This document shows positions 34,878 through 51,689 of a stretch of DNA of 64,000 nt, piece after piece. Under the pieces are notes generated by a model that saw only the letters and a program-made list of their open reading frames with translations, ran no database searches and had not been told where the DNA came from. Position 1 is the first letter of the stretch. Every line of letters starts with the position of its first letter. This DNA is from an uncultured Gemmiger sp. (GTDB taxonomy: Bacteria > Bacillota > Clostridia > Oscillospirales > Ruminococcaceae), in NCBI GenBank assembly GCA_944386225.1, contig CALXAH010000011.1, forward strand, positions 1 through 64,000. The letters run 5' to 3'. Both the position numbers and the translations under genes were made by a program.

Positions 34878-35597
34878 ATGAGTACAGCTCACAACCGTGC
34901 CGAAAAAGGCCAGATCGCGGCAACAGTCTTGATGCCGGGCGACCCTCTGCGCGCCAAATTTATCGCCGAGACCTTCCTGACGGATCCTGTACTGTTCAAC
35001 GATGTGCGGGGCATGCTGGGATACACCGGCACCTACCAGGGCAAGCCGGTCAGTGTAATGGGCAGCGGTATGGGTATGCCCAGCATCGGCATTTACTCCT
35101 ACGAGCTTTATACCCAGTACGATGTTCAGAACATTATCCGTATTGGCTCGGCCGGCTCCTACACCCCCAAAGCTGCGCTCTTTGATGTGGTTCTGGCCAC
35201 CGGCGCCTACTCGGAAAGCAGCTTTGCCCGCACCCAGAGCGGCTGTACCGACGATACCATTCTGCCCAGCGAGGCACTGAACGACCGTCTGCGTGCCAGC
35301 GCCCGGGCGCTGAATATTCCCCTTATTGAGGGCATTATCCATTCCAGTGACGTATTCTATCGCCATGATGACCGCACCAATCCCACCTACTGGGAAGCTC
35401 TGCGGGATGAAAAGGGCTGCGTAGCTGTGGAAATGGAAAGCTTTGCGCTGTTCCACAATGCCCGCGTACTGGGCAAGAATGCCGCCTGCCTGATCACCAT
35501 TTCGGACAGCTTTGTGGACAGCCGCGTTACTACCGCCGAAGAGCGGCAGACCAGCTTTACCAACATGATGAAGATCGCACTGGGGGCTGTGGAGTAA
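34878..35597 (+). CDS. deoD: Purine nucleoside phosphorylase, DeoD type
   Basis: A 239-residue hexameric-type phosphorylase that splits purine (deoxy)ribonucleosides into base and (deoxy)ribose-1-phosphate. Features are VLMPGDPLRAKFIAETFL, GSGMGMPSIGIYSYEL, RIGSAGSYTP and the ribose-binding VAVEMESFALF, followed by the catalytic SDS. Its stop overlaps the cdd start (TAATG), so the two are coupled. It opens the nucleoside island. A TGTTAATATT word in the 57-base gap upstream also occurs before the bmpA-type gene. Confidence 0.94.
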   Translation: MSTAHNRAEKGQIAATVLMPGDPLRAKFIAETFLTDPVLFNDVRGMLGYTGTYQGKPVSVMGSGMGMPSIGIYSYELYTQYDVQNIIRIGSAGSYTPKAALFDVVLATGAYSESSFARTQSGCTDDTILPSEALNDRLRASARALNIPLIEGIIHSSDVFYRHDDRTNPTYWEALRDEKGCVAVEMESFALFHNARVLGKNAACLITISDSFVDSRVTTAEERQTSFTNMMKIALGAVE

Positions 35598-36007
35598 TGG
35601 ACAACAGGGAACTGGTGCGTATGGCCATTGCAGCCCGCGAAAACGCCTATACGCCCTATTCGCATTTCCGGGTGGGCGCGGCGCTTCTTGCCAAGGACGG
35701 GCGCGTATTCACCGGCTGCAACATCGAATGCGCCAGCTACAGTCCTACCAACTGTGCCGAGCGCACAGCCTTGTTCAAGGCGGTAAGCGAAGGTGTGCGG
35801 GAATTTTCCGCAATTGCCGTAGTGGGCTGGAAGGAAGGGGAGACCTGCACATCCTTTGCCACTCCCTGCGGTGTATGCCGGCAGATGCTGTTTGAATTCT
35901 GCGGGCCCGAAATGCCGGTAATTATGGCCAAAAATGAAGACGAAATCATGGTTATGACACTGGGAGAACTGCTTCCGGTCGGCTTTGGCCCCAAGGATCT
36001 TCTCTGA
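35597..36007 (+). CDS. cdd: Cytidine deaminase
   Basis: A 136-residue zinc enzyme that converts (deoxy)cytidine to (deoxy)uridine. Zinc ligands and the catalytic Glu are in TNCAERTAL (C53, E55) and PCGVCRQ (C91, C94). Substrate residues YTPYSHFRVGAALL and GCNIECASYS are present. It is coupled to deoD and feeds uridine to the pyrimidine phosphorylase encoded 7.6 kb downstream. Confidence 0.95.
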   Translation: MDNRELVRMAIAARENAYTPYSHFRVGAALLAKDGRVFTGCNIECASYSPTNCAERTALFKAVSEGVREFSAIAVVGWKEGETCTSFATPCGVCRQMLFEFCGPEMPVIMAKNEDEIMVMTLGELLPVGFGPKDLL

Positions 36008-36012
36008 TCCGG

Positions 36013-36043
36013 AACCCACATCATTCGCCCCTTTTTGTGGGTT
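36013..36043 (+). terminator. Possible terminator after cdd
   Basis: AACCCACA pairs with TGTGGGTT (8 bp), but the following tract (GTTAATATTTTG) is only partly T-rich. Confidence 0.4.
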
Positions 36044-36081
36044 GTTAATATTTTGTAACTGCCGCAGTTTGTGACAAACTG

Positions 36082-36110
36082 TTGAAATTGGCGGAATAAA
36101 AGACTATACT
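36082..36110 (+). promoter_or_regulatory. Promoter of the BmpA-type lipoprotein gene
   Basis: TTGAAA (36082-36087), 17 bases, TATACT (36105-36110). A leader of about 100 bases contains the inverted repeat CGCGGTA/TACCGCG. Confidence 0.8.
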
Positions 36111-36216
36111 TTTACTGTTACCGCGGTACAGATTTTACCATACCGCGTATCCGTCCCTGCCGGATGCTGTTTGCGTCCGCGTGGGAAAAATCGAACAGGA
36201 ATAGGAGAGTACAAGC

Positions 36217-37245
36217 ATGAAAAAGATTATTGCTCTGATTCTGGCTCTTGTCATGGCTCTGTCCCTGGTGGCCTGCGGCAGCGCCGGCAGCGAAGCCGGC
36301 TCTGAGTCCATCAAGGTCGGCATGGTTACCGACGTGGGCGGCGTAAACGACAAGTCCTTCAACCAGACCTCCTGGGAGGGCCTGCAGGCTCTGGCCGCTG
36401 AGAACTCCAATGTCGAGGTCAGCTACCTGGAGTCCAAGACCGATGCGGACTATCAGTCCAACATCGAGACCTTCATTGACGAGGGCTACGACCTGATCAT
36501 CTGCGTAGGCTACATGCTGGCTGATGCCACCCGCGAGGCGGCCGAAGCCAACCCCGATCAGAAGTTCGCCATTATTGACGACTCCACCATCGATCTGCCC
36601 AACGTGGCCTGCCTGATGTTCTCTCAGGCTGAGGCTTCTTACCTGGTGGGCATCGTGGCCGGCATGATGACCGAGACCGATACCGTGGGCTATGTCCAGG
36701 GCATGGTTTCCGATTCCATGAACCAGTTCGGCTGTGGCTTCATCGCTGGTGTTAAGGCTGCCAACGAGAATGCCACTGTTCTGCAGTACAATGCCAACAG
36801 CTTCGGCGATCCTGCTGCCGGCGGCACCGCTGCCAAGGACATGATCACCAAGGGAGCTGACGTTATCTTCCACGCTGCGGGCGGCACCGGCAACGGTGTT
36901 ATCGAGACCTGCAACACCGAAGGCATCTACGCCATCGGCGTAGACACCGACCAGTCTTCTCTGGCCCCCAACACCGTGATCACCTCCGCCATGAAGCGTG
37001 TGGATACTGCTGCACAGGACATCTCTCTGGCTGTTCTGAACGGCACCTTCACCCCGGGTGTGCATCTGTACAGCCTGGAGAATGGCGGCGTTGACCTGGC
37101 TCCCACCCGCGATCTGCTGCCTGAGGACGTGATCACTGCTGTTGAGGACGCCAAGGCCAAGATCATTGCTGGCGAAGTCACCGTGCCCTCCACTCCGGAA
37201 GAGCTGGGCGGCGGTCTGTTCACCCTGGCCGAAGAAGCTGCCTAA
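36217..37245 (+). CDS. BMP-family nucleoside-binding lipoprotein
   Basis: A 342-residue surface lipoprotein that should capture nucleosides for the ABC transporter encoded at 39.9-43.5 kb. The signal peptide ends in SLVACGS with the lipid-modified Cys20. The mature part matches BmpA/PnrA: VGMVTDVGGVNDKSFNQTSWEGL, DLIICVGYMLADAT, FHAAGGTGNGVIE and IGVDTDQSSLAPN. Codon use is very biased (ctg, aac, gcc), suggesting high expression. It has its own promoter and strong terminator, so it is made separately from, and probably in excess over, the permease genes. Confidence 0.93.
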   Translation: MKKIIALILALVMALSLVACGSAGSEAGSESIKVGMVTDVGGVNDKSFNQTSWEGLQALAAENSNVEVSYLESKTDADYQSNIETFIDEGYDLIICVGYMLADATREAAEANPDQKFAIIDDSTIDLPNVACLMFSQAEASYLVGIVAGMMTETDTVGYVQGMVSDSMNQFGCGFIAGVKAANENATVLQYNANSFGDPAAGGTAAKDMITKGADVIFHAAGGTGNGVIETCNTEGIYAIGVDTDQSSLAPNTVITSAMKRVDTAAQDISLAVLNGTFTPGVHLYSLENGGVDLAPTRDLLPEDVITAVEDAKAKIIAGEVTVPSTPEELGGGLFTLAEEAA

Positions 37246-37278
37246 GAGAAAATTCTCTCTTTGAAAATCAGCAATTGA

Positions 37279-37315
37279 AAAGTGCCCGGCGCATTTTTGT
37301 GCCGGGCACTTTTTC
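37279..37315 (+). terminator. Terminator after the BmpA-type gene
   Basis: AGTGCCCGGC pairs with GCCGGGCACT, with an inner GCA/TGT, followed by five T. Confidence 0.95.
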
Positions 37316-37390
37316 TGTGATTTTTCGGTATATTCTGCAAATAAATATCGTGAAATGTGCCGGAAATGACAGCGCAATATACAATTTAAG

Positions 37391-37419
37391 TTGAAATTTT
37401 TCCTGTTTTTTAGTACAAT
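37391..37419 (+). promoter_or_regulatory. Promoter of yjjI-yjjW (and probably the ABC genes)
   Basis: TTGAAA (37391-37396), 17 bases, TACAAT (37414-37419), in an AT-rich stretch 50 bases before yjjI. Confidence 0.75.
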
Positions 37420-37468
37420 AGAAAAGTCATGAAGACTGTTTTATTGTTGAATTGGAGGACATTTGCAG

Positions 37469-39010
37469 ATGAGACCTATTTCAATGGAAACTGTTGAGGA
37501 GAAGCGCCGTGAAATCCTGGCTACAATTCAGGATCGCACCGCTTCTCACGAACAGAAGGTTACCTATCTGGCGCGTCACGCTGAGAACTTTTTGACCGTA
37601 ATTGATGAGCCGGAAGAACTGGACGCGCTGATGCGCTGCCCGCAGCCGGAACGCTGCATCTGCAATCTGTTTGAAGGAGACGCGCCTTACCGGCCCCGCT
37701 ATATTTGCCCGGACTATCCCAAGTTCCTGAAACAGGGCAGCGAATTTTTGCAGCTGGAGGCACCGAAGGATCTGTGGGAGGCGCTGAATAACCTGCTCAT
37801 CCTGTATCATAACGTGCCCAGCATCACCAACTATCCGGTGTACATTGGTGATCTGGACAATCTTCTGGAGCCTTATGTAAGCCAGGTGGATGATGAAACG
37901 GCAAAAAAGGCGCTGCGCCTGTTCTTTATCCAGGTAGACCGCACCATTCTGGATTCTTTCTGCCATGCAGATATCGGCCCTGCGGATACTCGCACCGGTC
38001 GGCTGATTATGGAGGTGGAAGCCGAACTGGAGGATGCCGTTCCCAACCTGACAATGCGTGTCAGCGAGGATACTCCCGATGAATTCCTTCTTGCCGGTGT
38101 GAAGTGTGCGTTGCGTTCGGCCAAGCCCAGCTTTGCCAATGACAGAATGTTCCGGGGTGAACTGGGCGATAACTACTGCATTGCCAGCTGCTACAATGGC
38201 CTGTATAAAGCAGGCGGTTCCTATACCCTGTGTCGGCTGCTGCTGCACGGTATTGCCAAGCGTTCCTCCGGCATCGAGGACTTCAAGAAAAACCAGCTGC
38301 CGTATGTAATGGATGTGATGGCCCGGTATATGGATGCCCGCATTCGGTTCCTGGTAGAGGAAAGCGGCTTCTTTGAGAGCAATTTCCTGGCCCGCGAAGG
38401 ATTGATTCAGCGGGAGAACTTTACCGCGATGTTCGGCCTTGTCGGCCTGGCGGAGTGCGTGAATACCCTGCTGGAGAAAGAGGGCCGCGAGGGTCGGTTT
38501 GGCCACAGTGCTGAGGCGGATGCGCTGGGCGTGGAGATCATGGATCAGATCGCCGCGTTTAACCGGGCGCATCAGGCACCCTATTGTGAGGCCACTGACG
38601 GTCACTTCCTGCTGCATGCACAGGTGGGCATTGACAGCGACAAGGGCAGCAGCCCCGGAACCCGCATTCCTGTTGGGGAGGAGCCTGCTGAACTGGTGGA
38701 TCATCTGAAAAATATCAACCTGTTCCACAAGTATTTCCCCTCCGGAACCGGCGATATTTTCCCGGTAGACATGACTGTACACAAAAATCCTCAGTTTGTT
38801 CTGGATGTGATTCGCGGTGCTTTCCAGCTCGATATCCGGTACCTGTCTTTCTACAGCAGTGACAGCGATGTGGTTCGCGTGACCGGCTATCTGGTAAAGC
38901 GCTCTGAAATGGAAAAGCTTGCCGCCGGACAGAATGTGCGTCAGAACACCACCGGCCTTGGCCTGGGTGCTTCGACCAACTGTAAGGCACTGGACAGACG
39001 GGTACGCTGA
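37469..39010 (+). CDS. yjjI: YjjI-family glycyl radical enzyme, unknown substrate
   Basis: A 513-residue oxygen-sensitive glycyl radical enzyme of the YjjI (DUF3029) family. The C-terminal radical motif is RVTGY with the glycine at about residue 473. Candidate thiyl-forming cysteines are in NYCIASC (about C237 and C241). The MFGLVGLAEC block and the RVTGYL ending recall class III ribonucleotide reductase more than pyruvate formate-lyase, and the protein is short for the superfamily (usually 700-850). The ATG at 37469 has GGAGG ten bases upstream. It is followed by its activase and lies between the nucleoside-binding protein and its transporter. The reaction is not established; a nucleoside or deoxyribose-derived substrate is my inference from context. 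Confidence 0.88.
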   Translation: MRPISMETVEEKRREILATIQDRTASHEQKVTYLARHAENFLTVIDEPEELDALMRCPQPERCICNLFEGDAPYRPRYICPDYPKFLKQGSEFLQLEAPKDLWEALNNLLILYHNVPSITNYPVYIGDLDNLLEPYVSQVDDETAKKALRLFFIQVDRTILDSFCHADIGPADTRTGRLIMEVEAELEDAVPNLTMRVSEDTPDEFLLAGVKCALRSAKPSFANDRMFRGELGDNYCIASCYNGLYKAGGSYTLCRLLLHGIAKRSSGIEDFKKNQLPYVMDVMARYMDARIRFLVEESGFFESNFLAREGLIQRENFTAMFGLVGLAECVNTLLEKEGREGRFGHSAEADALGVEIMDQIAAFNRAHQAPYCEATDGHFLLHAQVGIDSDKGSSPGTRIPVGEEPAELVDHLKNINLFHKYFPSGTGDIFPVDMTVHKNPQFVLDVIRGAFQLDIRYLSFYSSDSDVVRVTGYLVKRSEMEKLAAGQNVRQNTTGLGLGASTNCKALDRRVR

Positions 39011-39011
39011 T

Positions 39012-39851
39012 TTGGAGGCGCTGGTCAATAAAATCATCCCGTTCAGTTCGGTGGACGGTCCCGGAAACCGCACCGCCATATTTCTCCAGGGATGCAATTT
39101 TTCTTGTCTGTATTGCCACAATCCGGAAACAATCCAGCTATGCCGTGCCTGCGGCATCTGCGTGGATAAATGTCCTACGGGCGCACTTCGTTTGGAAAAC
39201 GGCCATGTTCAGTATGACCCTGCCGTCTGCGTTTTCTGCGATACCTGCTTTAAAAGCTGTCCGCACAGCGCTTCGCCCCGGGTACGCAGCATGACGCCCC
39301 GGCAGGTTATGGAGGAAGTATCCCGCAACCAGCCGTTTATTCGAGGTATAACCGTTTCAGGCGGGGAGTGTACCCGTCAACGCGATTTTCTGGCTGAACT
39401 TCTTACATTGGCCGGGCAGGCCGGGCTGGATACGCTGCTGGACAGCAATGGAAGCTACGACTTTTCTACCGACCCGGAACTGATGGCGGTCACCGATGGG
39501 GTAATGCTGGATGTGAAAGCATGGGATCCGGCAGAACACCGGCGGGTTACCGGACAGGATAACCGGCAGGTTCTGGCGAATCTTTCCTGGCTTGCACAAG
39601 CGGGCAAATTGGAGGAAGTTCGCACCGTCGTGGTTCCGGAACTTTTTGATCCGGAGCAAACGGTGCGGGAAGTATGCCAAATCATCGCACCGCATATTGC
39701 AAAGCGAAACACGCGCTATAAAATTATCTGCTATCGGCCTTTCGGGGTTCGGCAGGAATATCGCGGGCTTACCCCTCCCTCCGGGGAACTGCTTGCGCAC
39801 CTGTGCCAGCTGGCTCAAAGCTGCGGAGTGCCCAATGCGGTTGTTGTATAA
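39012..39851 (+). CDS. yjjW: YjjW-family glycyl radical enzyme activase
   Basis: A 279-residue radical SAM enzyme that should install the glycyl radical on YjjI. The SAM-cluster motif is CNFSCLYC (C28, C32, C35), followed by an inserted ferredoxin-like pair of clusters (CRACGICVDKCP and CVFCDTCFKSCP) and the SAM-binding TVSGGECTRQ. Family members begin M-x-A-x-VNKIIPFSSVDGPGNR, so I choose the TTG at 39012 just after the yjjI stop. No ATG or GTG fits, and the ribosome-like GGAGG (39014-39018) lies inside the start, so coupling is likely. Confidence 0.88.
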   Translation: MEALVNKIIPFSSVDGPGNRTAIFLQGCNFSCLYCHNPETIQLCRACGICVDKCPTGALRLENGHVQYDPAVCVFCDTCFKSCPHSASPRVRSMTPRQVMEEVSRNQPFIRGITVSGGECTRQRDFLAELLTLAGQAGLDTLLDSNGSYDFSTDPELMAVTDGVMLDVKAWDPAEHRRVTGQDNRQVLANLSWLAQAGKLEEVRTVVVPELFDPEQTVREVCQIIAPHIAKRNTRYKIICYRPFGVRQEYRGLTPPSGELLAHLCQLAQSCGVPNAVVV

Positions 39852-39946
39852 AAGTCCCGCAAGAATTGAAATTCCCGCATAGATCTGCCGCTCTGGCCGG
39901 CACGTGCGGAACAAGTTAAAAGACAGTCTGCAAAGGAGGCATACAT

Positions 39947-41491
39947 TTGGCGAAGGAACGACACGTTGACCTTGGTACCACGGTCATCGAAATGCGGAAC
40001 ATAACCAAAAAATTCGGCAATTTCGTCGCAAATGACGGGATTAACCTGACGGTACACAAAGGGGAAGTCCATGCTATTTTGGGCGAAAACGGTGCCGGTA
40101 AAAGTACTCTGATGAACCAGCTGTACGGTATGTACCCGCCCACATCCGGCGAGATTTTTGTCAATGGCAAAAAGGTTGTACTGGACAACCCGAAAAAGGC
40201 CATTGAAGCGGGCATCGGCATGGTGCACCAGCACTTTATGCTGGTGCAGCCGTTTACCGTTACGGAAAATATTGTGCTGGGCATGGAGCCCTGCAAGGGC
40301 GTCAGCCTGGATATGGCCACGGCCCGTAAAAACGTGAAAGCCATTTCGGAGAAATACGGGCTGGAAGTGGATCCGGATGCCCGTATTGAAGATATCTCGG
40401 TAGGTATGCAGCAGCGCGTGGAAATCTTGAAAGCGCTGTATCGCGGCGTGGATATCCTGATCCTGGACGAGCCCACTTCTTCCTTGACCCCGCAGGAGAT
40501 TAAGGAACTGATCGATATTATGCACAGCCTGACGGCGGATGGCAAGTCCATTATTTTGATTACCCACAAACTGAAAGAGATCAAGTCTTCTGCAGACTAC
40601 TGCACCATTATCCGCATGGGCAAGTACATCGATACCGTGGATGTGGAGGCGGTGACAGAAAACGATCTGGCCAGCATGATGGTGGGCCGCAATGTCACGT
40701 TTACCGTTGAGAAGCCGGAGAAAGAACCGGGGGAACCCGTACTGCAGATCAAAGACCTGCATGCGCTGGATTACCGCAAGCTGGAAGCCCTTCGCGGCCT
40801 GAATCTGGAAGTTCGCCGGGGTGAGATTCTGGGCATTGCCGGTATTGATGGAAACGGCCAGACCGAGCTGGTGGAATGCATCACCGGCCTGCGCCGTGCA
40901 ACTGACGGTTCCATTACGGTCAATGGGATAGAGGTTGCCAATAAGCCTCCTCGCTTTGGCTTTGAAAACGGCGTGTCCAGCATTCCGGCTGACCGGCAGA
41001 AACATGGCTTGGTGCTGGAGTTCTCGGTTGCCGATAACATGATCCTGCAGAATTTTGCCGATGAACCGTATTCCCACCACGGATTCCTGGATCAGGCGGC
41101 AATCCGTAAGTTTACCGAGGAGAACATCGAGAAATTTGATATCCGGCCCCGGGATTGTGCTGTCAAACCGGCGGGTACCCTTTCCGGCGGTAACCAGCAG
41201 AAGGTCATTATTGCCCGCGAGGTAAACAATGACAAAGATCTGTTGATTGCGGTAAACCCCACCCGCGGTCTGGACGTGGGTGCAATCGAATATGTGCACC
41301 GCTATATCGTGGAACAGCGCAACAAAGGCAAAGCTGTGCTTCTGGTCTCCTTTGAACTGGATGAAATTATCAGCCTGTCCGACCGGATCGACGTTATCTA
41401 CGAGGGACGCATCACGGGCAGTATGCCGGGCAAGGACGCAGATGAAAACGTCCTGGGCCTGCTGATGGCGGGAGGTAAGAAGCATGAGTAA
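39947..41491 (+). CDS. Nucleoside ABC transporter ATP-binding protein (YufO/NupA-like)
   Basis: A 514-residue double ABC ATPase of the sugar/nucleoside uptake type. Domain 1 has GENGAGKST, ISVGMQQRVEILKAL and ILDEPTSSLTPQE; domain 2 has IAGIDGNGQTELVE in place of a full Walker A, and LSGGNQQKVIIARE, the usual degenerate second site. The TTG start at 39947 follows AAAGGAGG. It lies 95 bases after yjjW with no terminator between, so co-transcription with yjjI-yjjW is likely. Its stop overlaps the first permease. Confidence 0.93.
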   Translation: MAKERHVDLGTTVIEMRNITKKFGNFVANDGINLTVHKGEVHAILGENGAGKSTLMNQLYGMYPPTSGEIFVNGKKVVLDNPKKAIEAGIGMVHQHFMLVQPFTVTENIVLGMEPCKGVSLDMATARKNVKAISEKYGLEVDPDARIEDISVGMQQRVEILKALYRGVDILILDEPTSSLTPQEIKELIDIMHSLTADGKSIILITHKLKEIKSSADYCTIIRMGKYIDTVDVEAVTENDLASMMVGRNVTFTVEKPEKEPGEPVLQIKDLHALDYRKLEALRGLNLEVRRGEILGIAGIDGNGQTELVECITGLRRATDGSITVNGIEVANKPPRFGFENGVSSIPADRQKHGLVLEFSVADNMILQNFADEPYSHHGFLDQAAIRKFTEENIEKFDIRPRDCAVKPAGTLSGGNQQKVIIAREVNNDKDLLIAVNPTRGLDVGAIEYVHRYIVEQRNKGKAVLLVSFELDEIISLSDRIDVIYEGRITGSMPGKDADENVLGLLMAGGKKHE

Positions 41492-42557
41492 AGTGAAGAA
41501 AGCTCTGGAAAGCAAACTCGCCATCACGGTCTTTTCCATTGTTGTTTCGTTTGTGGTGGGCGCGTTCTTTCTGGCAATTATGGGCATCAGCCCTATCGAG
41601 GCGTACGCCAAGCTGTTTTCCAGCATTTTCAGTACGCCCAAAAACATGGCATACTGCGTGGTCTATGGTACTCCGCTGATCTTTACCGGCCTTGCGGTGG
41701 CGTTTTCGTTCCGTACCGGTGTGTTCAATATCGGTGCTGAGGGTCAGTTTGTGGTAGGCAGTATGGCTGCCTGTGTGGTAGGCATTCTGGTTCCGGCTCC
41801 GTCCATCGTGCTGGTTCCTCTCTGCTTTATTGCCGCGGCGGTAGCTGGTTGCCTGTGGGGTCTGATTGTGGCCTTCCTGAAGGTCAAGTGGGGCATTAAT
41901 GAAGTGCTTTCCATGATCATGTTCAACTGGATCGCCTACTACCTGTCCAACTATATTGCCGGATTCTCCCTGATTCACAGCGACGGCAATGCAGAAGCTA
42001 CCAAAAACGTGCAGGATGCAGCCCGTATCCTGTTCCCGGAATCCTGGCGTGACGCTCTCTGCCCCTCCTCCAACTGGGGTATCTTTGTGGCACTGGCAGC
42101 TGTGGTGGTTGTGTATATCATCCTGGAAAAGACCACTCTGGGCTATCAGCTGAAGGCTGTGGGCTTTAACCGGCACGCAGCGGAATACGGCGGCATCAAT
42201 GTAAGCCGCAATATTTATACCGCAATGGCAATCTCCGGTGCTCTGGCCGGTATCGGCGGTGCGGTGCAGCTGCTGGGCATGGGCGCCCGTATCAGCATCT
42301 TCACCAGCCAGGAAAGCTATGGCTTCCAAGGCATCAGTGTTGCTCTGATCGGCGCCTCCAATCCCATTGGTGTATTCTTTGCAGGCATCTTCTATGGTGC
42401 ACTGAAATACGGCGGCAGTAAGCTGAACCTGATCGGTGCCCCGTCCGAAGTGGTCAATATCATCATGGGTACCGTGGTATTCTTTATTGCGATTTCCCAT
42501 GTGTTCCGCTTTACCCGCATACGCAAGAGCAAGAAGAAAAAGGAGGGGGCTCAGTAA
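41484..42557 (+). CDS. Nucleoside ABC transporter permease (YufP/NupB-like)
   Basis: A 357-residue BPD_transp_2 permease. An N-terminal membrane segment (LAITVFSIVVSFVVGAFFLAI) is followed by about eight more; conserved blocks are GTPLIFTGLAVAFSFRTGVFNIGAEGQFVVG and LGYQLKAVGFNRHAAEYGGINVSRN (the EAA-like loop), then GAASNPIGVFFAG-like ALIGASNPIGVFFAGI. It should form the membrane channel with the next gene product. It overlaps both neighbours. Confidence 0.93.
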   Translation: MSKVKKALESKLAITVFSIVVSFVVGAFFLAIMGISPIEAYAKLFSSIFSTPKNMAYCVVYGTPLIFTGLAVAFSFRTGVFNIGAEGQFVVGSMAACVVGILVPAPSIVLVPLCFIAAAVAGCLWGLIVAFLKVKWGINEVLSMIMFNWIAYYLSNYIAGFSLIHSDGNAEATKNVQDAARILFPESWRDALCPSSNWGIFVALAAVVVVYIILEKTTLGYQLKAVGFNRHAAEYGGINVSRNIYTAMAISGALAGIGGAVQLLGMGARISIFTSQESYGFQGISVALIGASNPIGVFFAGIFYGALKYGGSKLNLIGAPSEVVNIIMGTVVFFIAISHVFRFTRIRKSKKKKEGAQ

Positions 42558-43504
42558 TGGACGCTTTTATCAATGATCTGGGCATCATCCTGTATGCCAC
42601 ACTGCTGTATACGCCGCCGCTGTTGTTTGCCGCTATGGGCTCCTGCTTCTCTGAGCTGAGCGGTATTGTCAATATCGGCATAGAAGGCATGATGACTATT
42701 GGCGCCTTTACCTCTGCCACGGTTGCCTATTATACCGGAAATCCCTGGATTGGTTTTCTGGCAGGTGGCCTTGCCGGCCTGGCGTTTGGCGCACTGCATG
42801 CGCTGGCAACCGTGAATCTGGGCGCGGATCAGACCATTTCCGGTACTGCCATTAACTTCCTTGCGCCGGGTGTTGCGATCCTGATGGCAAAGGCGCTGTT
42901 CAATTCTTCGGACACAATCCCCCTGGATCCTACCGCCAAAATTCCGCTTCTGTTCAGTGATGTATTCACCAGCGGCACGGTTTGGAGCAATTTCTTTAAG
43001 AATGTTTTCAATACCTACGCCTCTACCTATCTGGTGTTTATTGTCCTGATTGTGGTGTGGTTTGTTTTCTACAAAACCCGTTACGGTCTGCGCCTGCGGG
43101 CTTGCGGTGAGCATCCGGCCACCTGTGCCACGCTGGGCATCAGCGTAACCCGTACCCGGTTCTCTGCCGTGTGCATTTCCGGTTTCCTGTCTGGTCTGGG
43201 CGGTGCCTGTGTGACCATGGCTACTATGAACCAGTTCCGCCCCACCTCTATCGTGGGTCAGGGCTTCATTGCTATCGCGGCGGTTATCTTTGGTAAATTC
43301 CGCCCGCAGGGTGCCATGATTGCCTGTCTGCTGTTTGGTATGTGCTCCGGCCTCAAGGTCGTGGTTGGTACCAGCAATGCTGCAGTTTCGGCGCAGCTGA
43401 TCTCCATGATTCCGTATGTGGTCACCGTGATTGTGCTGATTCTGTTCGTGGGCAAATCCCGCGTACCGGCTGCCAACGGCAAACCGTATATCCAGGCTAA
43501 ATAA
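42557..43504 (+). CDS. Nucleoside ABC transporter permease (YufQ/NupC-like)
   Basis: A 315-residue second BPD_transp_2 permease of the nucleoside importer. Features are GSCFSELSGIVNIGIEGMMTIGAFTSATVAYYTG, the cytoplasmic loop TRYGLRLRACGEHPATCATLGISVTRTR, and GQGFIAIAAVIFGKFRPQGAMIACLLFG. The ATG overlaps the stop of the first permease (TAATG). A terminator follows. Confidence 0.93.
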   Translation: MDAFINDLGIILYATLLYTPPLLFAAMGSCFSELSGIVNIGIEGMMTIGAFTSATVAYYTGNPWIGFLAGGLAGLAFGALHALATVNLGADQTISGTAINFLAPGVAILMAKALFNSSDTIPLDPTAKIPLLFSDVFTSGTVWSNFFKNVFNTYASTYLVFIVLIVVWFVFYKTRYGLRLRACGEHPATCATLGISVTRTRFSAVCISGFLSGLGGACVTMATMNQFRPTSIVGQGFIAIAAVIFGKFRPQGAMIACLLFGMCSGLKVVVGTSNAAVSAQLISMIPYVVTVIVLILFVGKSRVPAANGKPYIQAK

Positions 43505-43524
43505 GCGCATTTCGTCGGATCCCG

Positions 43525-43556
43525 GCCCCCGGACTCCCTCCGGGGGCTTTATGTTT
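43525..43556 (+). terminator. Terminator between the nucleoside ABC genes and pdp
   Basis: GCCCCCGG pairs with CCGGGGGC around a 7-base loop, then TTTATGTTTTTT. Confidence 0.85.
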
Positions 43557-43580
43557 TTTAATAAAGGAGGCTTGGCCTGT

Positions 43581-44903
43581 ATGAGAATGTTCGATGTTAT
43601 TGCGAAGAAACGCGATGGCGAAACCCTTTCCAAAGAAGAACTTCAGTTTGTAATCGACGGATATGTTTCCGGGCAGATTCCAGACTATCAAATGAGTGCT
43701 TTGCTCATGGCGATTTATCTGCGCGGTATGACCGATCAGGAAACCGCACAGCTTACCGATATCATGGCGCACTCCGGCGATATGGTGGATCTGTCTGCCA
43801 TTCACGGCGTTAAGGTGGACAAGCATTCTACCGGTGGCGTAGGGGATAAGACCACGCTGGTTATTACGCCGATTGTGGCAGCCTGCGGCGTAAAGATTGC
43901 CAAGATGAGCGGCCGCGGTCTGGGACATACCGGCGGTACGGTGGATAAAATGGAATCGGTGCCGGGTACCCGTACCAGCCTGGACCGGCAGGAGTTTTTT
44001 GACCAGGTGAACCGCATTGGCATCAGCGTGATTGGACAAAGCGGAAATCTGGCGCCTGCGGATAAAAAGATCTATGCGCTGCGGGACGTGACCGCTACGA
44101 TCGGCTGTGTGCCGCTGATTGCCAGCAGTATCATGAGCAAAAAGCTGGCTGCCGGTTCCGACTGTATTCTGCTGGATGTGAAAACCGGTAATGGCGCGTT
44201 CATGAAAACGTTGGAGGGTTCCATTCAGCTGGCACAGGCCATGGTTGCCATCGGCACCCACAATGGACGAAAAGTTGCAGCCCTGATTACCGATATGGAT
44301 ACTCCGCTTGGCTATAATATTGGCAATAGCCTGGAAGTGATTGAGTCGGTGGAAGTACTGAAAGGGCATGGCCCTGCGGACCTGACGGAGGTTTGCTATC
44401 AGCTGGCCGCCAATATGCTGCTGCTGGCTGGAAAAGGTACCCTTGCTGAATGCCGCAAGATGGCGGAAGAAGCGGTTGTCAGCGGCGCTGCCTACGAAAA
44501 GCTGAAACAAATGTTTGCGGCACAGGGCGGTGATGTTTCGGTGCTGGATGATCCCGATAGCTTTGCCAAGGCCAAGTACAGTCGTGAGATCCGTGCGGAT
44601 CAGAGTGGCTGGCTATATGCCACCAACACCGAAATGATCGGCAATGCCAGTGTACTGCTGGGCGCTGGCCGCATCAAGAAGGAAGATGCCATTGATTTTG
44701 CCGCCGGTATCGTGCTGCATAAAAAGGCGGGCGATAAAGTAGAGAAAGGCGATCTGCTGGCTACCTTCTATGCAGAGGATGAGGCCAAATTCGCCCCTGC
44801 GGAGGAGATGTACCGGGGGGCACTGACCTTCCGGGACGAGAAACCGGTTCTTCCTGAACTGGTCATGGCCCGCGTGACCGAAGATGGCGTAGAGCGATTC
44901 TAA
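43581..44903 (+). CDS. pdp: Pyrimidine-nucleoside phosphorylase
   Basis: A 440-residue phosphorylase of the thymidine/pyrimidine nucleoside family that splits uridine and thymidine into base and (deoxy)ribose-1-phosphate. The phosphate-binding KVDKHSTGGVGDKTTLVITPIVAACG, KMSGRGLGHTGGTVDKMESVPG and the C-terminal domain with GRIKKEDAIDFAAGIVLHKKAGDKVEKGDLLATFYA are clear. The ATG at 43581 follows AAAGGAGG; the second ATG at 43587 is possible. It completes the salvage set with deoD and cdd. Confidence 0.93.
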   Translation: MRMFDVIAKKRDGETLSKEELQFVIDGYVSGQIPDYQMSALLMAIYLRGMTDQETAQLTDIMAHSGDMVDLSAIHGVKVDKHSTGGVGDKTTLVITPIVAACGVKIAKMSGRGLGHTGGTVDKMESVPGTRTSLDRQEFFDQVNRIGISVIGQSGNLAPADKKIYALRDVTATIGCVPLIASSIMSKKLAAGSDCILLDVKTGNGAFMKTLEGSIQLAQAMVAIGTHNGRKVAALITDMDTPLGYNIGNSLEVIESVEVLKGHGPADLTEVCYQLAANMLLLAGKGTLAECRKMAEEAVVSGAAYEKLKQMFAAQGGDVSVLDDPDSFAKAKYSREIRADQSGWLYATNTEMIGNASVLLGAGRIKKEDAIDFAAGIVLHKKAGDKVEKGDLLATFYAEDEAKFAPAEEMYRGALTFRDEKPVLPELVMARVTEDGVERF

Positions 44904-49122: not shown

Positions 49123-50505
49123 TTATCGCAGGAAAAGATGAATCATTTTGTCGTACAGTTTGCTGGTATAGGGGAAATATCGCAAGGGCAGGTCGATCCA
49201 GCAAGCTTTCTCCACAATGCTTTTAGTGTGGCTGAAGGTATCAAAGCTGAATTTGCCATGATAGCCGCCCATACCACTGTTGCCCACGCCGCCAAATGGC
49301 ATTTCGTGGGTGGCCAGATGAATAATGGTATCGTTTACGCACCCGCCGCCGTAGCTGCAACGGCGCAACACCTGCTCCCGAGAGTGCTTGCTTTTGGTAA
49401 ACAGATAGAGCGCCAGAGGCTTTGGCCGGGCATTGACAAACGCAATGGCTTCTTCCAGGGTATCGTAAGGGATTACTGGCAGGATGGGCCCGAAAATCTC
49501 TTCCTGCATAGGTTTGCAGTTTTCCGGATCCGAAGCGTCCACAAGCGTAGGAGCAACCCAGCCGGAGATTTCGTCGGCGCAGGTCTGTCCGCCGCAGAGC
49601 AGCTTCTCATCCGCCAGCAGGCCTTGCAGACGCTCAAAATGCTTGCGGTTGATGATGCGGACAAAATCCGGATTGTGCACAGGATCCTCACCCAGCATTT
49701 TGATAAACTGCTTTTTCAGCTCTTCCACCAGTTTGTCTTTGACACTGCGCTGTACCAGCAGGTAATCCGGCGCTACACAGGTCTGGCCTGCATTCAGTAC
49801 CTTACCGAAAGCCAGCCGCCGGGCGGTAAGGGGGATATCCGCCGTTTCGTCCACAATGACGGGGCTTTTGCCGCCCAGTTCCAGCGTGACCGGGGTCAGG
49901 TGCTGGCTGGCCTTTTCCATAACCAGTTTGCCTACCGTTACGCCGCCGGTAAAGAAGATATAGTCGAATTTCTGATCCAGCAGCGCGGAGTTTTCTTTCC
50001 GGCCGCCTTCCACAACCGCTACCCAGCGGGGGTCGAAGACTGCGGCAACCAGTTCAGCCATGGCACGGCTGGTGGCCGGGGCATAGGCGCTGGGTTTCAG
50101 AACCACGCAGTTGCCTGCCGCTATTGCACCGATTACCGGATCCATGCTCAGCAGGAAAGGGTAATTCCAGGGAGCCATGACCAAAGTGAGGCCATAGGGC
50201 TCTTTCATCATATAACTGCGGGCAGAAAACTGCGCCAGGGGAGTGGCTGCCCGTTTGGGACGCGCCCACTTTTCCATTTTGCGAATGGTGTGGCCCAGTT
50301 CGTCCAGTACCAGGCCGATCTCGCACATGTAACTTTCGTAATGGCTTTTGTTCAGGTCCTGCCGCATTGCTTCGCAGAGGATGTCCTCACGGCGGCGAAT
50401 CTCTGCCTGCAGCCGGATCAGCGCCTCTTTTCGAAGTGTGACCGGCAGTGTGGCACCGGCGGCAAAATACTCTCGCTGGGCCTGTACAATAGTTTCAATA
50501 CTCAT
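49123..50505 (-). CDS. Aldehyde dehydrogenase (class 3-like, NAD(P)-dependent)
   Basis: A 460-residue aldehyde dehydrogenase oxidising aldehydes to acids. Conserved parts are MAPWNYPFLLSMDPVIGAIAAGNCVVLKPS, FFTGGVTVGK, the general base in LELGGKSP (E209) and the catalytic Cys in NAGQTC (C243); EEIFGPILPV is also present. It lacks a signal peptide, and a hydrophobic C-terminal tail is as in YwdH-like forms. The ATG at 50505 overlaps the alcohol dehydrogenase stop by one base (TAATG) and is six bases after GGAGGT. A strong terminator follows. Confidence 0.92.
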   Translation of the reverse strand: MSIETIVQAQREYFAAGATLPVTLRKEALIRLQAEIRRREDILCEAMRQDLNKSHYESYMCEIGLVLDELGHTIRKMEKWARPKRAATPLAQFSARSYMMKEPYGLTLVMAPWNYPFLLSMDPVIGAIAAGNCVVLKPSAYAPATSRAMAELVAAVFDPRWVAVVEGGRKENSALLDQKFDYIFFTGGVTVGKLVMEKASQHLTPVTLELGGKSPVIVDETADIPLTARRLAFGKVLNAGQTCVAPDYLLVQRSVKDKLVEELKKQFIKMLGEDPVHNPDFVRIINRKHFERLQGLLADEKLLCGGQTCADEISGWVAPTLVDASDPENCKPMQEEIFGPILPVIPYDTLEEAIAFVNARPKPLALYLFTKSKHSREQVLRRCSYGGGCVNDTIIHLATHEMPFGGVGNSGMGGYHGKFSFDTFSHTKSIVEKACWIDLPLRYFPYTSKLYDKMIHLFLR

Positions 50506-51689
50506 TACCATACCTCCTGCAGCAGCGCGCGGATATCGCTTGCGCCGGCTTCCCGGGGATTCACAATAATGGCGCCGTCGTTCAGGGCGCGGGCAATCAC
50601 CGCGTCAAAATCGCTTTCCTGCACCTTGCCGGTGTCCCGCAGCCGTGCCGGAAGTTTGCAGGTCTGCGCCAGACGGCCGCGTAAACCTTCAATTGCCTGA
50701 ATAGCGGCCATAGGCCGTTCCGGCGCGGGGGTTGCCGCATAGATCTCGGGGCCTGCCAGCGGCAGCAGCAATTCGCCGTACCGGCTGCCGCATTTGGAAA
50801 GATTATACCGCATAACCGCCGGCAGCAGGATGTTCATAGCCTCGCCGTGGGGTACACGGCACACGCCGCCCAGTGCGTGCCCGATAGCATGAACAAGGCC
50901 CACCATACTGTTGGAGAACGCCGCGCCCGCCAGCAGGCTGGCATTGGCCATTCCCTGACGGGCTGCCAGATTATCCCCGTCGTCCACGGCGTCGGTCAGG
51001 TGAGCCATAACCAGACCAATGGCTTTTTCCGCAAAAGCATCGCTGATGGGATTGCGCTGCAGACAGCTGGCGGCTTCTACCGCGTGGCAAAGAGTATCCA
51101 TACCGGTAGCCGCCGTTACCCGCGGGGGCAGGGTGCGGGTCATCCGGGGATCGAGCACCGCCACATCCGGCAGCAGATGATAACTGATGAACTCCATTTT
51201 TACCTGCCGGTCCGGGTCGGCAATCACCGCGACCAGCGTAGCTTCACTGCCGGTTCCGGCAGTGGTGGGGATCGCCACGTAAGGAATATGCTGGCCGCGG
51301 GGCAGTGCTTCACAACCCATGTTCTGGCGCAGATCCTCGGTTCCCTGCGCAAGAACCATGCCTACACCCTTGGCGGTGTCAAGCACACTGCCGCCGCCTA
51401 CAGCCACCAGACTGTCGCAGCCGTTGCAGCGGAACAGTTCGGCTGCCCGGTTGACCACCTGAATGGAAGAGTCGGCAGGCACATCGTAAAATTCAGCAGC
51501 CGGATGGCAGCCGCTGGCTTCCATGGCCGCCTTGACCTGACCGGCAACACCGAAGCGTACAAGCCCCGCATCGCTCATCAGCATAGGCGAATGGGCACCC
51601 AGCCCTTCCAGTTCGTGTGCGATATGTTCCAAAGCGCCGCCGCCGCTTAAAATCTTGGCAGGCAGCTTGAACTCAAAATATTCCTGCAT
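50505..51689 (-). CDS. Iron-containing alcohol dehydrogenase
   Basis: A 394-residue group III Fe-dependent dehydrogenase. The nucleotide-binding part has VAVGGGSVLDTAKGVG and IPTTAGTGSEAT; metal ligands lie in MDTLCHAVEA, LVHAIGHALGG and VPHGEAM. The substrate may be a short-chain alcohol or aldehyde, or a diol, which sequence cannot resolve. It is translationally coupled to the aldehyde dehydrogenase and follows the SCP2-like gene by 18 bases. Confidence 0.93.
   Translation of the reverse strand: MQEYFEFKLPAKILSGGGALEHIAHELEGLGAHSPMLMSDAGLVRFGVAGQVKAAMEASGCHPAAEFYDVPADSSIQVVNRAAELFRCNGCDSLVAVGGGSVLDTAKGVGMVLAQGTEDLRQNMGCEALPRGQHIPYVAIPTTAGTGSEATLVAVIADPDRQVKMEFISYHLLPDVAVLDPRMTRTLPPRVTAATGMDTLCHAVEAASCLQRNPISDAFAEKAIGLVMAHLTDAVDDGDNLAARQGMANASLLAGAAFSNSMVGLVHAIGHALGGVCRVPHGEAMNILLPAVMRYNLSKCGSRYGELLLPLAGPEIYAATPAPERPMAAIQAIEGLRGRLAQTCKLPARLRDTGKVQESDFDAVIARALNDGAIIVNPREAGASDIRALLQEVW

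Follow-up and report, generated by a model that had tools for sequence, protein, structure and literature searches.

Genes for the glycyl radical enzyme YjjI and its activase interrupt a nucleoside-type transporter operon in an uncultured Gemmiger

Introduction

On what substrate does the glycyl radical enzyme YjjI act, and what do the genes around it suggest? In the 64,000-nucleotide stretch of Gemmiger DNA analyzed here (the window), yjjI and its putative activase gene, yjjW, lie among genes for nucleoside uptake and salvage; in E. coli the same pair adjoins deoCABD, as the initial annotation of the window stated and as we found. YjjI was called uncharacterized in 2011, in a study that proposed a role in nitrogen metabolism from coexpression with nar genes in E. 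coli and Salmonella (PMC3228777). Elsewhere, yjjI and yjjW are marked as FNR activated (PMC2634741), yjjI appears in a listed FNR regulon (PMC3688515), and an ETEC strain has CRP sites at two places, in the yjjI-deoC interval and within yjjI itself (PMC4287617). Three further papers carry yjjI in expression lists that give nothing on its reaction (PMC9068703, PMC6643234, and PMC6561319), and among the open-licence papers examined here we found no assigned reaction for E. coli YjjI.

Results

A predicted nucleoside uptake and salvage locus surrounds yjjI and yjjW

All nine genes of the island lie on the forward strand (Table 1). Curated profile scores and coordinates bear out the annotated order from deoD to pdp, and with it the split of the transporter genes by yjjI-yjjW, which separates the binding-protein gene from the ATPase and permease genes. 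The start of yjjW is an inferred TTG, one base past the yjjI stop codon. Profile searches found no dehydrogenase among the nine genes; an aldehyde dehydrogenase family gene lies on the opposite strand at 49123-50511, 4.2 kb past pdp.

Table 1. Genes and candidate transcription signals of the yjjI locus (positions in the window)
Feature	Position	Strand	Basis
deoD-type purine-nucleoside phosphorylase	34878..35597	+	TIGR00107, 253 bits (cut-off 232)
cdd, cytidine deaminase	35597..36007	+	TIGR01354, 153 bits (cut-off 114)
Bmp/PnrA-type substrate-binding lipoprotein	36217..37245	+	PF02608, 257 bits (cut-off 24)
Terminator-like hairpin between Bmp gene and yjjI	37277..37314	+	17 pairs and T tail; -32.0 kcal/mol (56-nt stretch)
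Promoter-like site upstream of yjjI	37391..37419	+	TTGAAA-17-TACAAT, 10/12
yjjI, YjjI-family glycyl radical enzyme, 513 aa	37469..39010	+	TIGR04040, 685.8 bits (cut-off 498.3); PF11230, 731 bits
yjjW, radical SAM activase	39012..39851	+	TIGR04041, 357 bits (cut-off 250), match from residue 34 of longer ORF
Tandem ABC ATPase, nucleoside-type transporter	39947..41491	+	PF00005, two stretches
Permease 1	41484..42557	+	PF02653
Permease 2	42557..43504	+	PF02653
Terminator-like hairpin after permease 2	43524..43548	+	-21.4 kcal/mol (41-nt stretch)
pdp, pyrimidine-nucleoside phosphorylase	43581..44903	+	NF004747, 584 bits (cut-off 559)

By profile search the PnrA/Bmp-type ABC transporter set is complete, with a Bmp lipoprotein, a tandem ABC ATPase, and two BPD_transp_2 permeases. 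The solved chains nearest to the window's Bmp protein are 7x0r (Lbp), 6yab (Lipoprotein), and 2fqw (tmpC). Lbp is likewise nearest for the Bmp proteins of two other yjjI loci (L157 and L146), with tmpC, BmpA, and BmpD among the next matches for these three proteins. Lbp and tmpC/PnrA bind nucleosides, and the chains closest to the window's protein are Lbp and PnrA-type proteins; we infer by homology that this transporter carries nucleosides. A putative B6 ABC transporter model (NF047927) was rejected for the window's transporter at 106 bits against a cut-off of 400.

YjjI has a single invariant cysteine and an invariant radical glycine

The TIGR04040 match of the window's YjjI covers profile positions 2-497 of 497. 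The pyruvate formate-lyase-like model PF02901 also matches (31.6 bits; cut-off 24.3), over 70 residues only (176-245), while PF13597 (NrdD) falls below its gathering score (21.2 versus 26.2 bits). Counted from the ATG at 37469, the key residues are Cys241, Asn243, and Gly473; counted from the TTG at 37463, they are Cys243, Asn245, and Gly475.

We compared these positions in 133 aligned homologs, of which 79 belong to the window's clade and whose sources include the best 80 of 577 contig loci; L078 and L140 (<420 aa) were removed from these counts, and L078 also from an alignment for its in-frame stop. The annotated RVTGY radical site is present in the window, and its glycine is found in 133/133 proteins. 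C237 and C241 had been put forward as a pair; C241 is Cys in all 133, C237 in only 25, and the proposed pair is therefore a single conserved cysteine rather than a family trait. The 133 rows contain no second invariant Cys.

Glycyl radical enzyme dehydratases follow, as a family rule, a Cys-x-Glu catalytic motif, which in this analysis was read only in YbiW. Because the YbiW Glu is replaced by an invariant Asn in YjjI, the comparison argues against canonical radical dehydration. The earlier proposal, radical dehydration or deoxygenation of a nucleoside, (deoxy)ribose, or its phosphate, is partly supported; both its substrate and its reaction are candidates.

yjjI can be read together with the transporter genes

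The initial annotation saw no terminator up to 43525 and took yjjI-yjjW to be probably on one transcript with the transporter. From yjjI on, the first statement stands: between yjjI and 43524, the forward-strand scan found only short terminator-like sites of 5 to 7 pairs. Upstream of yjjI it does not, given the strong hairpin there. With this 17-pair hairpin and the promoter-like match downstream of it, transcription of yjjI is probably attenuated relative to that of the binding-protein gene or independent of it. The match is weak, as 12 promoter-like sites were found against 8.3 expected in shuffles; across the whole region, terminator-like sites numbered 12, against 12.1 expected from shuffles.

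Related loci, from a census that includes the best 80 of 577 contig loci, have the same layout. The transporter ATPase gene directly follows yjjW in 50 clade loci, with a median gap of 38 nt and terminator-like sites in 0/50 gaps; these 50 exclude the window, whose yjjW was missed by the codon-bias gene caller. Between the Bmp gene and yjjI, a terminator-like site occurs in 37 of 58 clade loci, window included. Together, these results indicate that yjjI can be read together with the transporter genes; with no strong terminator-like site in between, we infer that they share a transcript.

The nucleoside link is real and not universal

The initial annotation proposed to compare yjjI neighborhoods with those of random genes and expected a nucleoside link across phyla. 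In the census (genome contigs represented by the best 80 of 577 confirmed loci, so that the window's clade is overrepresented), nucleoside genes lie near yjjI in 69/80 loci of the window's clade, which carries deoD, deoB, deoC, cdd, add, and pdp; deoC itself is near yjjI in 27 of these 80. At least one locus has a nucleoside neighbor in 5 of 22 sequence groups, against 1 of 60 random windows (P = 0.005; tblastn on both sides), a count above random. The query genes were taken from the window and E. coli, which makes those two groups positive by construction; without them, the comparison is 3/20 versus 1/60 (P = 0.046). The link holds in the clade and in four other groups, E. coli among them, and fails in 17 of the 22, where the stretch scanned around yjjI contained none of the query genes (for three of them, L136, L138, and L139, this stretch was short of full length). 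Negative groups include Vibrio, Haliovirga, a Chloroflexota record, and a 15-locus Clostridium-type group; within the E. coli group, Proteus (71.8% identity) has no nucleoside neighbor.

Apart from E. coli, other phyla were reached through five plasmid-collection records only, species may recur between the genome sets counted, and the codon-bias script that called locus genes misses some, as with the window's yjjW. Nucleoside hydrolases and phosphoribosyltransferases were outside the query set, so L127 and L159 scored negative; L127 has a weak RihA/RihC similarity and L159 a xanthine phosphoribosyltransferase. L189 was removed as the same genome as L056, and L194 (Aeromonas, one in-frame stop) was kept for the neighborhood count and left out of the tree and residue counts.

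On the YjjI tree, the positive groups sit in separate parts, and the link is strongly clustered (9 changes versus 17.3 in shuffles, 0/500 as low). Several of the nine changes represent loss of the link within the window's clade, and few independent gains are shown; the clade enters the tree as 19 chosen rows of its 80 loci, of which 5 lack the link, a choice that partly determines the change count, and 7 truncated or short-window loci were left out of the label count. Across 398 genomes, in overlaps read by eye from tables, a Bmp protein is encoded in 26/26 YjjI-bearing genomes and 249/372 others (uncorrected for kinship and genome size); co-occurrence of deoC with YjjI is not significant (25/26 versus 315/372; P = 0.08).

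Individual loci place salvage genes beside yjjI

Four loci (L097, L105, L117, and L118) carry phosphorylase and deoB (phosphopentomutase) genes between yjjI and yjjW; in L117, the insert encodes a uridine phosphorylase and a phosphopentomutase, both above cut-off. In L157, one strand reads yjjI-yjjW-mtnA-class II aldolase-DeoR-like regulator-bmp-ABC-permeases, with mtnA at 448 bits against 279 (TIGR00512) and the aldolase matching, below cut-off, a ribulose-1-phosphate aldolase model among others. A 5'-deoxyadenosine deaminase gene (700 bits versus 522) follows about 12 kb on, outside the gene run.

Other neighbors of yjjI include Crp/Fnr-type regulators (L134, L141, L150, and L179), a cyclic-nucleotide-binding protein (Haliovirga), chemoreceptors (L132 and L168), and PfkB with LacI (L144). 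A PfkB-type kinase was rejected as a recurrent neighbor: those of L061 and L144 are 41% alike, those of L127, L065, and L133 only 26 to 29%, and L084 gave a short match. The neighbors in L176, guessed from their lengths to be a transporter, are RuvAB and SpoIID genes. Six viral-contig stretches matched a pattern for YjjI relatives, and none encodes one.

Discussion

We propose that YjjI and YjjW provide nucleoside catabolism with an oxygen-sensitive side branch and are coexpressed here with a PnrA/Bmp-type transporter, a reading to which we give an even chance. Nucleosides would be imported by the Bmp-type ABC transporter and split by phosphorylases (DeoD and Pdp, with uridine phosphorylase in relatives) into base and (deoxy)ribose-1-phosphate; in genomes that encode DeoB, this enzyme would turn the sugar phosphate into the 5-phosphate. 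SAM cleavage by YjjW would generate a radical on Gly473 of YjjI; this would pass to Cys241 as a thiyl, which would take a hydrogen from the substrate. The likeliest substrate would be a nucleoside-derived pentose or pentose phosphate, in a redox-neutral C-O cleavage or rearrangement. A bolder version, that YjjI with its single invariant Cys and Cys-x-Asn active site represents a new glycyl radical enzyme reaction class, cleaving in redox-neutral fashion a C-O bond of ribose-1-phosphate or another nucleoside-derived pentose phosphate in an anaerobic branch common to E. coli and gut Clostridia, strikes us as improbable as a whole. Comparable associations in some distant bacteria point to a role of YjjI in nucleoside breakdown without oxygen. 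From the neighborhood data, nucleoside-derived pentoses are the first substrate candidates; together with the residue comparison, this brings a long-standing question of gene function within reach of direct tests in a laboratory E. coli strain.

The alternative that survives best, somewhat unlikely in our judgment, is that YjjI, as a general anaerobic enzyme, acts on a substrate unrelated to nucleoside metabolism and was recruited to the operon in a few lineages for regulation, its E. coli neighbors being coincidental. An operon of this kind could carry a passenger gene whose substrate is unrelated. The link is missing from 17 of 22 groups, and the regulators, cyclic-nucleotide-binding protein, chemoreceptors, and PfkB-LacI pair show yjjI in other company; E. 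coli yjjI, moreover, follows FNR (PMC2634741 and PMC3688515) and covaries with nar genes (PMC3228777). Against this stand the random control (1/60), the separation of the positive groups on the YjjI tree, and the four loci whose yjjI and yjjW flank phosphorylase and phosphopentomutase genes.

More doubtful still is that the substrate of YjjI, rather than a pentose, is a C2 compound released when nucleoside sugars are cleaved (acetaldehyde via DeoC, or glycolaldehyde/ethylene glycol via ribulose-1-phosphate aldolase). L157, where yjjI-yjjW directly precedes mtnA and the possible ribulose-1-phosphate aldolase, would fit, as would deoC near yjjI in the 27 clade loci counted above and the aldehyde dehydrogenase family gene beyond pdp; haloarchaea turn guanosine into DHAP and ethylene glycol via ribulose-1-phosphate aldolase (PMC9700705). 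However, the island's nine genes include no dehydrogenase, and Cys-x-Glu of YbiW, the only dehydratase-type motif read, is Cys-x-Asn throughout YjjI. Least probable is processing of nucleosides modified at the 5' position, or of their sugars, for instance 5'-deoxyadenosine or methylthioadenosine from radical SAM and polyamine chemistry, which the mtnA, aldolase, and distant deaminase genes of L157 would suit, but this is one locus with the deaminase outside the gene run, and the window's clade has deoD, deoB, deoC, cdd, add, and pdp instead.

Comparison with known systems

The window shares with PnrA/Bmp-type nucleoside ABC transporters the Bmp lipoprotein, tandem ATPase, and two permeases, and differs in that yjjI-yjjW interrupts the transporter genes.

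Among glycyl radical enzymes (YjjI numbered from TTG-37463), NrdD gave the lowest hhalign E-value of three sets, 8e-17 (from sets of 10, 5, and 2 rows, which allows only a rough comparison of E-values). In E. coli NrdD, C384 aligns with Cys243 and G681 with Gly475. C175 of E. coli NrdD is a second active-site Cys, kept in that protein and the nine NrdD-like ORFs aligned with it; YjjI has no equivalent, lacks the C-terminal Cys-rich insert, and is shorter (median 514 versus 712 aa in E. coli NrdD). With pyruvate formate-lyase, YjjI has in common the C-terminal Gly loop, and Cys243 takes the place of the second member of the E. coli PflB Cys pair in the alignment; the first is Ser242 in 133/133 YjjI, and the adjacent Cys pair is absent. 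Short core blocks match YbiW, of the dehydratase branch (E = 0.008 in a PDB profile search, 1e-6 by hhalign), which has Cys-Ile-Glu where 133/133 YjjI have Cys-Tyr-Asn. This residue comparison points away from pyruvate formate-lyase-, dehydratase-, and ribonucleotide reductase-type chemistry.

The closest known counterpart is E. coli YjjI, of the same family (TIGR04040/PF11230) and about 43% identical, with the same full-length match, invariant Cys, Gly motif, and YjjW partner; by homology, the adjacent YjjW would make the glycyl radical in YjjI. E. coli has the yjjI-yjjW pair divergent from deoCABD, whereas in the window the pair separates the Bmp gene from the remaining transporter genes; in both, it adjoins nucleoside genes.

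Genomic context of YjjI in the window

The + strand of the window carries deoD, cdd, the gene for a PnrA/Bmp-type substrate-binding lipoprotein (Bmp), yjjI, yjjW, a tandem ABC ATPase gene, two permease genes, and pdp, all present and in the order given by the initial annotation. YjjI and its radical SAM activase YjjW score well over the cut-offs of their models (TIGR04040, 686 bits versus 498; TIGR04041, 357 bits versus 250). YjjI is 513 amino acids long, counted from the ATG at 37469, and the yjjW start is assumed to lie one base past the yjjI stop. Among the best 80 of 577 loci, the nearest from a named genome is that of Gemmiger sp. An120, whose YjjI is 97% identical. The gene set itself is ordinary, and YjjI is an already known family.

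The yjjI-yjjW pair had been proposed to share a transcript with the transporter. From yjjI to the second hairpin, a scan of the + strand yielded only 5- to 7-pair sites, in agreement with this proposal; a hairpin with a T-run, however, lies between the Bmp gene and yjjI (see the table). Within the 80-locus group that contains the window's YjjI (the window's clade), 58 loci have yjjI directly after the Bmp gene, and 37 of these gaps hold a terminator-like site. The gaps of the 50 loci where the ATPase gene directly follows yjjW hold none (background, 12 of 400 shuffled 200-nt pieces). This distribution suggests that yjjI-yjjW probably shares a transcript with the ATPase and permease genes of the transporter, downstream of a terminator that attenuates.

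Coordinates of features in the window and in YjjI loci of the census (L handles)
Feature	Position	Strand	Remark
Hairpin and T-run	window 37277-37314	+	3' of Bmp gene; -32.0 kcal/mol in 56-nt stretch
Second hairpin	window 43524-43548	+	3' of permease 2
Aldehyde dehydrogenase family gene (PF00171, 304 bits)	window 49123-50511	-	4.2 kb past pdp, opposite strand
Xanthine phosphoribosyltransferase gene	L159:11491-12063		directly 3' of yjjW
Weak RihA/RihC ribonucleoside hydrolase similarity	L127:15265-16275		~5 kb from yjjI; window's clade member without nearby Bmp transporter
YjjI reading frame with one in-frame stop	L194:9001-10530		Aeromonas caviae record
dCache chemoreceptor gene	L132:7713-9764		adjoins yjjI; Clostridium-type genome
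dCache chemoreceptor gene	L168:6726-8720		adjoins yjjI; Clostridium-type genome

Nucleoside genes recur near yjjI

We assembled 131 YjjI loci, to which a genome-contig profile search contributed the best 80 of 577, and added 5 from plasmid-collection records (136 in total). Linkage at 65% identity gave 18 groups, or 22 with the added records: the Proteus record joined the E. coli group (71.8%) and the others formed groups of their own; for the stop-broken Aeromonas frame, a 59.9% match to E. coli decided the placement. Nucleoside genes lie in the scanned neighbourhoods of 75 of the 136 loci, which include the best 80 of 577, and of 69/80 loci in the window's clade (49/55 where the neighbourhood is full-length). 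At the group level, the comparison with random neighbourhoods, named beforehand in the initial annotation, came out above random: 5 of 22 groups have at least one nucleoside-linked locus, versus 1 of 60 random windows drawn from 12 YjjI-bearing genomes (Fisher P = 0.0047). Without the two groups from which the idea came, that of E. coli and the window's clade, the excess is 3/20 versus 1/60 (P = 0.046), or 3/20 versus 0/60 for Bmp alone (P = 0.014). The query genes are absent from the scanned neighbourhoods of the other 17 groups, 3 of which are covered by short windows only; near yjjI in the Proteus, Vibrio, Haliovirga, and Chloroflexota records, other neighbours take their place.

The five positive groups (the window's clade, L146/L147/L149, L181, L157, and E. 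coli) are separate in a quick tree, in which L181 is a long branch of unsure position. The nucleoside link is clustered on this tree, as its label changes 9 times (7 forced by starred branches) versus an average of 17.3 in shuffles; some of the 9 changes are losses inside the window's clade.

Several arrangements are telling. In four loci (L097, L105, L117, and L118), phosphorylase and deoB genes sit between yjjI and yjjW; in L117 they encode uridine phosphorylase (TIGR01718) and phosphopentomutase (TIGR01696), both over cut-off. The order is yjjI-yjjW-bmp-ABC-permeases-cdd in L181, and bmp-ABC-permeases precede yjjI in L146, L147, and L149. L157 (with L191; genome G005, contig C2) carries on a single strand yjjI-yjjW-mtnA-class II aldolase-DeoR-like regulator-bmp-ABC-permeases, with a 5'-deoxyadenosine deaminase gene ~12 kb away from this run; its regulator scores 310 bits against the DeoR model, under the cut-off of 420, and no listed aldolase model reaches cut-off on its aldolase. 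The adjacency to deoCABD claimed for E. coli is present, with yjjI-yjjW in divergent orientation. In a separate group, a gene of 190 to 191 codons lies 3' of yjjW in 3 of 5 loci (L159, L161, and L162), and the L159 copy encodes xanthine phosphoribosyltransferase.

In the window's phylum, true YjjI (>280 bits; 1 a fragment) occurs in 26 of 398 genomes, spanning 15 families. In raw counts uncorrected for kinship and genome size, a Bmp protein is encoded by 26/26 YjjI-positive versus 249/372 YjjI-negative genomes (P = 4.6e-5) and deoC by 25/26 versus 315/372 (P = 0.08).

Crp/Fnr-type regulator genes adjoin yjjI in L134, L141, L150, and L179, and the gene for a cyclic-nucleotide-binding-domain protein does so in Haliovirga. 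These neighbours fit what is reported for E. coli, where excerpts mark yjjI and yjjW as FNR activated (PMC2634741) and list yjjI in the FNR regulon (PMC3688515). Regulator genes of one or the other type thus adjoin yjjI in several groups, the loci being L134, L141, L150, L179, and L195.

An unusual active site in YjjI

Residues are numbered in the frame from TTG-37463 (Cys243, Asn245, Gly475); subtracting 2 gives the numbering of the initial annotation. Among 133 YjjI sequences of at least 420 amino acids, 79 of them from the window's clade, Glu71, His168, Ser242, Cys243, Tyr244, Asn245, Arg258, Glu312, His385, Arg401, and Gly475 are invariant. Of the C237/C241 pair of the initial annotation, C241 (Cys243) thus holds throughout, but C237 is Cys in only 25/133.

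NrdD-like blocks had also been claimed. By hhalign, with sets unequal in depth, the E-value is lowest for anaerobic ribonucleotide reductase (NrdD; 8e-17), followed by pyruvate formate-lyase (PFL; 6e-7) and YbiW/PflD (1e-6). Other searches run counter to this ranking: the Pfam PFL-like model passes (31.6 versus 24.3 bits, covering 70 residues), the NRDD model falls below cut-off (21.2 versus 26.2 bits), and a PDB profile search places YbiW and NrdD nearly equal (E = 0.008 and 0.009).

Our literature search, in one open-licence collection, found no biochemical assignment of YjjI. Excerpts of PMC3228777 term it uncharacterised, mention an NrdD-like domain prediction, and put forward a role in nitrogen metabolism from co-expression. 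Elsewhere, again in excerpts, a CRP site is placed at yjjI/deoC and another within yjjI in an ETEC strain (PMC4287617), an anaerobic-growth transcriptome table of Yersinia intermedia includes yjjI and yjjW (PMC3792023), and a haloarchaeal route leads from guanosine to DHAP and ethylene glycol (PMC9700705). From the nucleoside link that recurs among YjjI loci, and from the unusual residues of the YjjI active site, we draw a specific, testable hypothesis, to which we give an even chance: the substrate of YjjI is a pentose (phosphate) derived from nucleosides. Any particular reaction is much less probable.

Three known classes offer hallmark residues for comparison: the Cys pair of PFL, the Cys-x-Glu of dehydratases such as YbiW, which with PflD is assigned to anhydrohexitol phosphates, and C175 of NrdD. 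In the hhalign alignments, Cys243 lies over NrdD C384 and, in the PflB pair, over the second Cys, and Gly475 lies over NrdD G681. The first Cys of the PFL pair is replaced by Ser in YjjI, the Glu of Cys-x-Glu by Asn, and C175 is without a counterpart, there being no second invariant Cys. To judge from these alignments, YjjI therefore appears to be without the hallmark residues of PFL, the canonical dehydratases, and ribonucleotide reductase alike.
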